From an uncultured Faecalibacterium sp. (GTDB lineage: Bacteria; Bacillota; Clostridia; Oscillospirales; Ruminococcaceae): a stretch of DNA of 26,353 bases. The translations under genes and the position numbers were made by a program. This document shows, piece by piece, positions 6,700 to 21,450 of the stretch. The notes below the pieces were generated by a model. That model was not told where the DNA came from and made no database searches. It was given only the letters and a program-made list of their open reading frames with translations. Every line of letters begins with the position of its first letter. Position 1 is the first letter of the stretch. The stretch covers positions 1 to 26,353 of the forward strand of contig CAKTCY010000028.1 of the NCBI GenBank assembly GCA_934540955.1, read 5' to 3'.

Positions 6700-6752
6700 T
6701 TGAAAAAGAAAAAGAAAAAGCCCTTGTCCCCTGCTTCTTTCAAGAGACAAAG
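6700..6752 (-). terminator. T-box attenuator (intrinsic terminator)
   Basis: Minus-strand arms CTTTGTCTC (6752-6744) and GGGACAAGG (6730-6722) pair with G-T wobbles, followed by a long T-rich run (6721-6700). It sits between the conserved T-box sequence and ilvB, where the alternative terminator of a T-box switch belongs. Confidence 0.85.
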
Positions 6753-6998
6753 ACCTTGTAACATCAAGCTCTCTGCGGTACCACTCTCGTTGGCGTGCTG
6801 TGCACACCCTCTCACGGGCTTCCAACAAAGCCCTGCACGGTAACGGCTGCAACCGGCGCTGCTTACAAGGGTTTGCACCCGTTGGGCAGGCTGCTCCGGG
6901 ATGATTTTCCGCACGAAACGCTGACTGCCTTGCACCAGACGGCAGCTCTCTGAACAGTGGGGATCGTGTGGTACTTTTTCCCATCTGCGCATTTGTTG
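6700..6998 (-). ncRNA. T-box leader RNA with isoleucine specifier (AUC), controlling the ilv operon
   Basis: The roughly 300-nt leader has the standard T-box parts in order. Stem I begins near 6985 with an AAAAAGTA (AGTA loop-E) motif. Its distal part reads CAGAGAGCTGCCGTCTGGTG then CAAGGCAG. The specifier side reads GGAAAATCATCCCGGAG. The T-box proper is AGAGTGGTACCGCAG (6787-6773), followed by the attenuator. The specifier triplet is most likely AUC at 6905-6903, giving Ile, which suits an operon making isoleucine and valine. A second AUC is adjacent (6902-6900) and gives the same amino acid. By the known mechanism, uncharged tRNA-Ile should stabilise the antiterminator and allow ilvBNCD transcription. 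Confidence 0.93.
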
Positions 6999-8418: not shown

Positions 8419-8468
8419 AAAAAAGCGGGACACCGAAGCGTCTTAGGATGCTCCGGTGTCCCGCTTTT
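8419..8468. terminator. Bidirectional terminator between the DUF815 gene and ridA
   Basis: A long stem, AAAAGCGGGACACCGAAGC with GCTCCGGTGTCCCGCTTTT, surrounds a short loop, with A-run and T-run on opposite sides. It serves the convergent genes ending at 8394 and 8486. The stem sequence GGGACACCGGAGCG is reused at 15379-15414. Confidence 0.85.
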
Positions 8469-15366: not shown

Positions 15367-15414
15367 GAAAAGAAAAATGGGACACCGGAGCGCCCTCAGA
15401 CGCTCCGGTGTCCC
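15367..15414 (-). terminator. Terminator of the metal exporter gene
   Basis: The arms GGGACACCGGAGCG (15379-15392) and CGCTCCGGTGTCCC (15401-15414) pair perfectly around an eight-base loop, with ATTTTTCTTTTCC following on the minus strand. The stem is nearly the same as the one at 8419-8468. Confidence 0.85.
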
Positions 15415-15436
15415 GAAATCCAAAATATTTTTATCT

Positions 15437-16490: not shown

Positions 16491-16540
16491 GAAAAAAGAG
16501 GTTCTGAAAAGCCCATGGGCTTTTCAGAACCTCTTTTTTC
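16491..16540. terminator. 50-bp perfect palindrome, terminator of mnmA-tcdA
   Basis: Positions 16491-16515 are the exact reverse complement of 16516-16540, centred on CCATGG. In RNA it would form a stem of more than 20 bp with a minimal loop, ending in TTTTTT on either strand. It lies 36 bp after the tcdA stop. Confidence 0.88.
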
Positions 16541-18497: not shown

Positions 18498-18534
18498 TAG
18501 TATAATACTACCGCAGCATAAACCGCTTGTCAAG
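18498..18534 (-). promoter_or_regulatory. Promoter of mnmA-tcdA with a palindrome over the -10 box
   Basis: Minus strand TTGACA (18534-18529), 17-base spacer, TAGTAT (18511-18506). The cca stop codon TGA is part of the TTGACA hexamer. A 15-bp palindrome GTAGTAT-A-ATACTAC (18498-18512) covers the -10 box and may be an operator. Confidence 0.75.
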
Positions 18535-19978
18535 ACGCAGAAATTTTCTGCGCCGCAGCCAGCAGCGCCGATTTTTCGTTGGGGTATTCTGCGCGGATGA
18601 CGCCGTCCAGCAGCGCCTCCAGCACCCGGCGCAGCGCAGGCCCTGCCGGGATGCCCGCTGCCATCAGGTCGCGGCCGTTCACCGCCAGCTGGCTCACCCG
18701 GCAGCATACGCCGTCGGCCTCCAGTTGCCGCGCCCGCTGCGCCGCAAGGGCGCAAGCCGGGGCATTCTGCGGGTGCAGCGCCGCCCACAGCGCACACAGC
18801 CGCTCCACGGTGCACAGCCCGTACCGGCCTAAAAGCTGCCGGAGATGGATGTCACTGGCGCGTTCCGGGGCGTGTGCGGGAGTTTCTCCGAGGACCGTCC
18901 GCTGGGGTGGGACCCTGCTGCCGCAGGCAGTAGGGCGGGCGATGGAATGGCTTGCAACAGCAACGACTGCCGCCTGCGGCGGAAACAAGGAGTTGCTGTT
19001 GGGGCAGCGGCCAACAGGATGCGAGTGCTGCTCAAGGCACGAAGCATCCGTTGGGTGCCGCAACTCGAACTCGTGTCCGAGGAGAAAGCTCCCGCACACG
19101 CCCTCCCCTGCCGTTTCCCGCACCAGCACTGCGGTCTCCTCGATGCAGGCGTTGGAGCAGCGCAGCCGCTTGAGTACCCGGCGGGTGTCGGTCTCGCCCA
19201 GAGCGCCCAGCAGCGCCGCCCAGCGCACCGGCAGGTTTTCCACTCCCACCGGGCAGGCATCCACCACCGGCTTTGCGGCAGTCAGGGCTTCCGGGGTCAG
19301 CTCCGGCAGCACCACCGCCAGCACGGCGGGCTCCAGATACACCCCCGGCTGCGGGGCAGCCAGCAGCTTTGCCAGCTCCTCCTGAATGCGCTCGGCAGAG
19401 ATGCAGTCTAGGTGCGGTGCCAGCTGCCGCGCTGCCCGGGCGGTGGCTGCGTCCAGCGCAAAGCCGAACCTTGCGGCAAAGCGGTACAGCCGCAGAATGC
19501 GCAGCGCATCCTCGGTAAAGCGCTGCTGCGGCTCGCCTACCGCCCGCAGCAAACCGTTTTGCAGATCTGTCTGCCCGCCAAAGGGGTCTACCAGACCCTC
19601 GGCTTCATTATACGCCATGGCGTTGATGGTAAAATCCCGCCGGGCAAGATCCTCCCGCACGTCCGGTACGAACTGCACTGCGTCCGGGTGACGGCCATCG
19701 GTATAGCTGCCCTCGGTGCGGAAGGTGGTGGTCTCGTACAGCTGCCCGCCGTATTTGATGGTGACCGTGCCGTGCTGCAAGCCGGTGGGGATGCACTGCT
19801 CTGCCCCGAACAGCTCCATCACCTGCTGCGGCAGGGCACTGGTGCACAGGTCCCAGTCGTGGGCGGTGCGCCCCAAAAGACTGTCCCGCACGCAGCCGCC
19901 CACGGCATAGGCTGCGTAGCCCGCCGCGTGCAGGGTGTCCAGCAGGGCAGCTGCCCCGGGGTCAAGTGTCAGCTTCAT
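18530..19978 (-). CDS. cca: CCA tRNA nucleotidyltransferase carrying an in-frame palindromic insertion
   Basis: This class II nucleotidyltransferase adds or repairs the 3' CCA of tRNAs. The head domain shows AVGGCVRD (25-32), the metal-binding HDWDL (Asp41, Asp43) and RRDFTINAMAY (113-123); RILRLYRFAARFGF (160-173) and the neck/body helices follow. The total is 482 residues, of which about 293-370 come from a 236-bp inverted-repeat element (18868-19103) that keeps the frame. Without it the protein would be near 404. After the insert the sequence resumes as PERASDIHLRQLLGRYG, typical of the C-terminal region. The ATG overlaps the rnz stop (ATGA). Whether the element is kept in the protein as a surface loop is unknown; the active-site residues are intact. 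Confidence 0.92.
   Translation of the reverse strand: MKLTLDPGAAALLDTLHAAGYAAYAVGGCVRDSLLGRTAHDWDLCTSALPQQVMELFGAEQCIPTGLQHGTVTIKYGGQLYETTTFRTEGSYTDGRHPDAVQFVPDVREDLARRDFTINAMAYNEAEGLVDPFGGQTDLQNGLLRAVGEPQQRFTEDALRILRLYRFAARFGFALDAATARAARQLAPHLDCISAERIQEELAKLLAAPQPGVYLEPAVLAVVLPELTPEALTAAKPVVDACPVGVENLPVRWAALLGALGETDTRRVLKRLRCSNACIEETAVLVRETAGEGVCGSFLLGHEFELRHPTDASCLEQHSHPVGRCPNSNSLFPPQAAVVAVASHSIARPTACGSRVPPQRTVLGETPAHAPERASDIHLRQLLGRYGLCTVERLCALWAALHPQNAPACALAAQRARQLEADGVCCRVSQLAVNGRDLMAAGIPAGPALRRVLEALLDGVIRAEYPNEKSALLAAAQKISAS
18868..19103. mobile_element. Palindromic insertion element inside cca (non-autonomous, RPE-like)
   Basis: The left end (18868-18893) and right end (19077-19103) are inverted repeats, GGGCGTGTGCGGGAG paired with CTCCCGCACACGCCC, continuing through TTTCTCC/GGAGAAA. 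The 236-bp element has no transposase. Its central ~110 bp (18953-19064) recurs inverted at 21241-21351. No target-site duplication could be identified, so the exact ends are uncertain by a few bases. It encodes about 78 residues of the cca frame, rich in Ser, Cys, His and Pro and unlike the flanking helices. Confidence 0.8.
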
Positions 19979-21209: not shown

Positions 21210-21240
21210 CGGGACGATTGGGAATGCGCGCCGCTTCCGG

Positions 21241-21351
21241 GTTGCGGCACCCAGCATCCGCTTCGTGCCTTGAACGGCACTCGCGTCTTACTGGCCGCTG
21301 CCCCAACAACTCCTCCCTGTTTCCGCCACTGGCGGCGGTCGTCGTTGTTGC
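21241..21351. repeat. Second copy (inverted) of the core of the cca insertion element
   Basis: The reverse complement of this stretch aligns with 18953-19064 in cca. Shared blocks include TTCAAGGCACGAAGC (one base differs), TTGGGGCAGCGGCCA, GGCGGAAACA and GGGTGCCGCAAC, with scattered substitutions and small length differences. The terminal inverted repeats of the cca copy are absent here. It lies in the 317-bp gene-free gap between the small membrane ORF and pyrB. Confidence 0.8.
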
Positions 21352-21359
21352 ACTTTGCA

Positions 21360-21450
21360 CATATTCAGCGGAAGAATTATTTATAATTTCGGGTTTCGGA
21401 AACGCCTGCGGGCGTTTCTGAAACCCATTTTCACGGGAGGGGTCGTAAAG
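21360..21450. repeat. Conserved-flank hairpin element, copy 2
   Basis: It starts CATATTCAGCGGAA, has a 15-16-bp hairpin (arms from 21391 and to 21426, GGGTTTC.GAAACGCC), and ends with a 24-base block (21427-21450) finishing GGGTCGTAAAG. The flanks match the element at 1261-1349, while the stem sequence does not. It adjoins the core repeat at 21241-21351 directly. Confidence 0.6.

Follow-up and report, generated by a model that had tools for sequence, protein, structure and literature searches.

A composite palindromic repeat of Faecalibacterium lies in frame, and in both orientations, in the cca gene

The window analyzed here is the whole 26,353-nt stretch of DNA from an uncultured Faecalibacterium sp., and it carries a cca gene for a CCA tRNA nucleotidyltransferase (Table 1). 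The frame of this gene comprises 482 codons without a stop, of which approximately codons 295-372 belong to a nested palindromic insert. The CCA-enzyme Pfam domains PF01743, PF12627 and PF13735 flank the insert on both sides, and the frame is left open, as the first-pass annotation of this DNA had held. That annotation had also placed inverted repeats at the bounds of 18868-19103, and its coordinates are right. Positions 18868-18885 pair with 19086-19103 as 18-nt inverted repeats of 94% complementarity, and the repeats continue inward (18883-18895 with 19075-19087, 85% complementary). The segment folds better than its dinucleotide shuffles, with z of -8.6 for the plus strand and -6.8 for the minus strand (0 of 200 as good, on either strand). 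The conserved LV and LLGR anchors are 95 residues apart in the window, compared to approximately 16-22 residues in relatives without the outer element described below (counted by hand from aligned cca sequences). This amounts to about 77 added residues, close to the 78 claimed earlier. Elsewhere in the window, a T-box leader (6740-6996, 106.4 bits) stands upstream of an acetolactate-synthase-like gene, and a perfect palindrome of two 25-nt arms (100% complementary, zero spacer) is located at 16491-16540. Two similar hairpin-like repeats with GGGACACCG...CGGTGTCCC, 81% alike, are found at 8421-8463 and 15373-15415.

Table 1. The cca gene and the repeat elements in and near it, in window coordinates.
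Feature	Position	Strand	Basis
cca, CCA tRNA nucleotidyltransferase	18530..19978	minus	open frame; PF01743, PF12627, PF13735; dN/dS
Left arm of A	18868..18882	.	pairs with 19089-19103
A core, first part	18883..18951	+	core bounds; A-only copies in relatives
B nested in A	18952..19064	+	filled and empty copies differ by 114 nt; ends ambiguous by a few bases
A core, second part	19065..19088	+	filled/empty comparison
Right arm of A	19089..19103	.	pairing with left arm
Lone intergenic copy of B	21241..21352	-	82% over 115 nt

The 236 bp are a nest of two repeat families, B inside A, and not the single element that had been proposed; relatives have the outer A alone at the same cca site. Element A consists of a 92-bp core between 15-bp arms, and element B, of 114 bp, sits at one fixed point within A. 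When the stretch was searched against 31 relatives, most matches covered either query positions 11-92 plus 212-251 (A) or 94-208 (B), and a few spanned A and B together. The cca genes of G001 (the nearest genome compared, with 27% of the window's sampled words in common) and of G004 have A only. Both elements are present in cca of the window's lineage and of G041, and close relatives have A alone. At three sites copies of A with and without B can be compared, and the junction is the same and the difference 114 nt in each: cca (G011/G041 and G042/window), an intergenic site (G001/G042) and a second intergenic site (G042/G001, also G043). The second copy reported earlier at 21241-21351 is real, but it corresponds to the inner element B without A (82% over 115 nt). 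This lone B seems to be inserted in a hairpin repeat of another kind, which spans approximately 21214-21430 of the window and is also found at L014, L022, L025 and L144. It combines a perfect hairpin of variable sequence with an AT-rich stretch and the motif TTCCGCTGAATATGGCC...AAGCGGAGGCCAT, the halves of which, judged by eye, could pair as a pseudoknot (CCGCT with AGCGG, ATGGC with GCCAT).

We compared the cca site in the window and in 16 of the 19 genus genomes; G010, G019 and G012 were omitted, their cca-like loci aligning at 37-49%. In cca of the window and of G001, G004, G011, G017, G033, G041, G042 and G043, A is open and in frame. It is absent from cca of G015, G018, G003, G005, G016, G002, G014 and G009. 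With so many relatives lacking the insert, it is not an ancient insertion of the enzyme family, in keeping with the first-pass view. G006, G008 and G013 have short segments at the A site. In G007 a short remnant, GVSEEKASAH, is left, which a deletion between two copies of CGTGT could explain. In G033 (L063, 607-2001) an extra stretch, SEEEAPGTP, follows A; it resembles VSEEKASAH of the G007 remnant and is perhaps a second, partial A end. The arms of A at cca have a common GGGnGTGT-like pattern, which suggests a single ancestral insertion.

The A core does not keep one orientation. In cca it is inverted in G004 relative to G001, G042 and the window, and in G043 relative to G011, and it is open and in frame both ways. 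The flipped core of G004 reads SFSEDRPLGWDP... where the G001 type has SFLLGHESGHS.... At an intergenic site upstream of a thiI-like gene, the core of G004 and G007 is turned opposite to that of G001 and G042, and arms and flanks agree; the G042 copy also contains B. All of these flips are comparisons between species, not within one culture. They indicate that one loop of the CCA enzyme can have two unrelated sequences, depending on the orientation of A. It had been suggested that the family is tuned to be open in one orientation. This does not hold: both orientations are in frame in cca, and copies of A with 16-nt arms average 3.79 open frames of six (43 copies), compared to 2.78 in shuffles.

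Outside the insert, dN/dS of cca was 0.10-0.21 in nine pairs, and the gene is under purifying selection. For the window and G011, dS in cca is 0.99. Between G001 and G011, 6 of the 93 positions of the A core are different, and four of the six form two complementary pairs. Such a small number of differences, despite a dS of 0.99, implies that, even within a gene, the nucleotide sequence of the core is maintained or copied anew. In proteins of 482 amino acids (123 of the 156 database proteins listed), the mean column entropy was 0.075 within the insert, 0.085 ahead of it and 0.155 behind it. At E of 0.01 or better, database proteins matched the nested insert region in 2770 of 2850 candidates and the flipped-A region in 1786 of 1796. 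CCA-enzyme domains were found in all of the best 120 of the 2770 and of the best 120 of the 1786. The AlphaFold model (11 rows) was weak overall (mean pLDDT 56.3, pTM 0.51). It rendered residues 292-372 as coil, with block means of approximately 23-28, preceded by a helix at 276-289 (86-87) and followed by helices from 371 on (58, 73, then 92). The insert is predicted by this model to be disordered between helices, which would fit the tolerance of foreign sequence.

The first-pass annotation had made mobility depend on further copies beyond 21241-21351, and such copies, counted across the relatives' genomes plus the window, are numerous in relatives. With A alone as the query, 14 of 31 genus genomes gave matches, 1 to 18 each (a nested copy can count twice). 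The nested A+B query matched 10 of 19 genomes of the genus and none of 12 other genomes. In a collection of 84,980 species, all 24 stretches that match an exact A-tip pattern are titled Faecalibacterium. The same pattern had 0 matches in a viral collection, and phage carriage of A was discarded on this count. Judged by these matches, A is confined to the genus Faecalibacterium among the genomes searched. No Rfam family matched A at threshold, and a shallow survey, mostly outside the subscription literature, found no published name for a repeat of this type in Faecalibacterium.

We collected 59 copies of A in which both ends are recognizable, with orthologues and the window counted and matches without a second end left out; 43 are A alone and 16 contain B. 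Calls by a custom, simple codon-usage gene caller placed 50 of the 59 between genes and nine within genes, every one of the nine in cca. The family does not look specialized for genes. The likeness to Rickettsia palindromic elements proposed earlier stands for the cca copy, a palindromic repeat in frame in a gene under purifying selection, where A acts like such an element; it fails for the family, whose copies are mostly intergenic. For 37 of the intergenic copies, the distance from a stop codon to the start of A is at most 60 nt and usually 17-37 nt. In these 37 the core is opposite to the upstream gene in 24 and in the same orientation in 13, an unevenness that hints at selection on the transcript.

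At the loci compared between relatives, no clean pair of empty and filled sites for A was found. In some spacers G011 and G041, otherwise nearly identical genomes, have entirely different sequence, and other repeats or simple hairpins occupy sites where A stands in other species. A third spacer repeat, CCTCTCC...CCAAAGGGAGAGGC...GGCTCTCCCTTTGGGAGAGCTG...GAGAGGG (L092, L093, L115, L124, L135, L155), stands behind the same genes in place of the A of other species. At the intergenic flip site, five species (G006, G008, G017, G036, G037) have a spacer of approximately 1 to 13 nt without arms (hand count), so the arms seem to have arrived with the insertion there. These armless spacers weaken the proposal that pre-existing host hairpins are the target of A. 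Among orthologues of L077, G001, G004 and G042 have a small hairpin with similar arms, so a host-hairpin target is possible at that locus. No gene for moving A was identified among the two candidates examined, DUF3800 and the Y1 transposase; DUF3800 genes occur in 3 of 31 genomes, two of them among the 14 with A, and were rejected as mobilizers. Fifteen partial or divergent copies, inspected with 130 nt of flank, included none with the long interior of an autonomous element or parent transposon.

The arms of A vary from site to site, and the core ends are far better conserved. The arms are not wholly random; a weak consensus, GGCnGGnGnGCCGGnAG, is seen in 37 copies. In a test of 21 sites, left after removal of 10 orthologous copies from 31, the flanks outside the core were complementary at 7.4 of 11 positions, compared to 4.0 for arms of different sites (0 of 10,000 permutations). 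Scores of 0 and 3 were obtained at one site each. In the L064/L013 copy of G008 there is no arm pairing past the first five positions, and the arms of the L084 copy pair only with an offset. Covariation was evaluated in an alignment (A1) of 37 of the 43 A-only copies, from which five repeats of included sites and, inadvertently, L013, with the poorest arms, were omitted. Two-sided change was found at 18 of 32 pairs (116 two-sided cells), with 95.5% of cells paired; 0 of 500 shuffles reached any of the measures, and all slid versions were also lower. With L013 included (38 copies), 95.1% of cells were paired and the ratio of one-sided to two-sided cells was 14:118; with all 43 copies the values were 95.4% and 15:141. 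By strand, the ratio for A was 14:116 and 54:144, compared to 51:59 in an alignment of RNase P RNA that covered 30 of the 31 genus genomes with 24 distinct rows. Fisher p values were 7.5e-10 and 0.001, for sequences that are related and not independent. Wobble mismatches were counted over 46 sites, with sites needing an arm offset left out. They fell 39 versus 23 cells, with more on the strand that is not usually sense, which gives no support to strand-specific RNA selection.

The insert is real and composite; A lies in frame in a gene under selection, occurs there in both orientations and hosts B at several sites, and we infer how its core flips. The reading that we prefer, and to which we give an even chance, is that A is a Faecalibacterium repeat with one ancestral insertion in cca, in which template switching keeps the arms paired and flips the core. 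The cca copies would go back to one insertion in an ancestor. Its tolerance would be due to a length change divisible by three, to the scarcity of stops in A and to the location of the site in a loop between helices. Together, the arms and the ends of the core make up one long hairpin, and template switching between the arms during replication could copy one arm onto the other. Such copying would keep the arms complementary while they drift, and the switching would occasionally invert the stretch between them. Template switching would explain why both orientations occur at the same site and why the one-sided share is low. Both outcomes, arm homogenization and spacer inversion, are attributed to template switching in yeast coding DNA in excerpts of PMC8604942. 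An excerpt of PMC8794818 describes template switching for arm repair in RNA stems, with the prediction of simultaneous two-sided change and few intermediates. The yeast spacer inversions change 2-5 bp (PMC8604942, in the same excerpts); considering that approximately 92 bp are inverted here, recombination or an invertase may be needed. A bolder version would make A a self-mending, self-inverting repeat, in which replication pairs the arms, flips the core and so recodes approximately 35 residues of an essential tRNA enzyme to and fro without a recombinase, and which receives a second element that adds exactly 38 codons. We regard this version as possible, if doubtful.

Three other explanations were weighed. 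In one, a transposase supplied in trans would mobilize A as it would a MITE; the opposite orientations in cca and at the intergenic site would then stem from separate insertions or from allele exchange between strains, and not from inversion. The short, dispersed form of A, its inverted ends and its restriction to one genus among the genomes searched are consistent with this, as are the different arms of A in G013 and in the G007 group at the intergenic flip site, which look like the result of separate acquisitions. The wholesale spacer differences between G011 and G041 would suit acquisition or exchange as well. Separate insertions, however, are at odds with the common arms and flanks of G001 and G004/G007 around an inverted core at that intergenic site. 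The candidate transposase of the Y1 family (PF01797) has no clear link to A, being present in 7 of the 14 genomes with A and in 4 of the 17 without it, and was rejected as the mobilizer. We consider this explanation unlikely. Same-site inversion, in cca and between genes, would also be expected if A were an inverton, with a site-specific recombinase flipping the segment at its conserved core ends and cca having two switchable forms. Elements of the inverton kind are known from gut bacteria (PMC11892184, in part of its text), and conservation is much stronger at the core ends than in the arms. Yet many copies stand between a stop codon and the next gene, and the paired arms differ from site to site. 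In our estimate an inverton is quite improbable.

The position behind stop codons argues in turn for a structured RNA. A would then be mainly an element of mRNA ends, stability or processing, selected in the transcript, and its copy in cca would be an accident. Compatible with this are the placement of intergenic copies behind stop codons (37 of 50 at no more than 60 nt, with one orientation to the gene in 24 of the 37), the strong covariation of pairs and the conservation of the core in cca far beyond synonymous sites (6 of 93 positions differ; dS 0.99). The wobble mismatches, however, show no preference for the usual sense strand (39 versus 23 cells), and RNase P RNA has a higher share of one-sided change than A. 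The orientation is not fixed, and no Rfam family matches at threshold. We think it rather improbable that A is mainly such an RNA. 

Whether or not template switching is the mechanism, the locus presents an in-frame palindromic insertion in a commensal Firmicute that is kept in several species. By database counts, CCA proteins with the insert are very many (2770 nested and 1786 flipped, the best 120 of each inspected). In cca, a tRNA enzyme tolerates a loop that is seemingly set by the mechanics of DNA and not by protein function. A in cca is a natural system for the upkeep of pairing in a coding hairpin and for the rate of flips of approximately 90 bp within genes. The analysis also brings to light genus-specific hairpin repeats behind stop codons, for which the searches made found no existing name.

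Compared by description, A resembles the Rickettsia palindromic elements (RPE) as an in-frame palindromic repeat within a gene that is kept. RPEs of several families are found in many genes, and nearly half of 44 copies in R. conorii are within ORFs (PMC10969869, in excerpt). In contrast, the genic copies of A, 9 of 59, are all in cca. RPE arms are said to lose identity with time in the available portion of PMC6649704, whereas those of A are kept paired; A occurs in both orientations in place, and the RPE text consulted makes no mention of inversion. The enterobacterial RU-1, RU-2 and RU-3 repeats, which are ERIC-like, are also intergenic hairpin repeats of approximately 100-170 bp with some in-frame genic copies (PMC2759123, partial text). 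By description they differ from A, whose arms differ between sites, and the words "inversion" and "orientation" are absent from the main text of PMC2759123 as available.

As a short dispersed repeat with terminal inverted repeats, A conforms to the description of a MITE. It does not follow the REP/RAYT pattern, since the Y1 transposase is not tied to A-bearing genomes (7 of 14 versus 4 of 17 without A). In intragenic invertons, inversion inside a gene yields two protein forms. A in cca likewise occurs in both orientations (G004/G001 and G043/G011), as seen between species; unlike an intragenic inverton, its arms vary between sites and its segment is a dispersed repeat. The DUF3800-IV RNA (RF02963) also has a long basal stem of free sequence and a conserved tip. 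It aligned at full length to one A copy (L157, 1792-1913) with 29.4 bits, below the gathering score of 60.7. Palindromes in mitochondrial coding sequences of Nematomorpha keep their arms complementary, for which template switching has been proposed; unlike A, they apparently form no dispersed family with intergenic copies (PMC6649704, in the portion available). The yeast inverted repeats show the same two outcomes within coding sequence: the arms become identical and the spacer is inverted. According to the excerpts of PMC8604942, these are unique repeats with spacer substitutions of 2-5 bp, whereas approximately 92 bp are inverted here, in a dispersed family.
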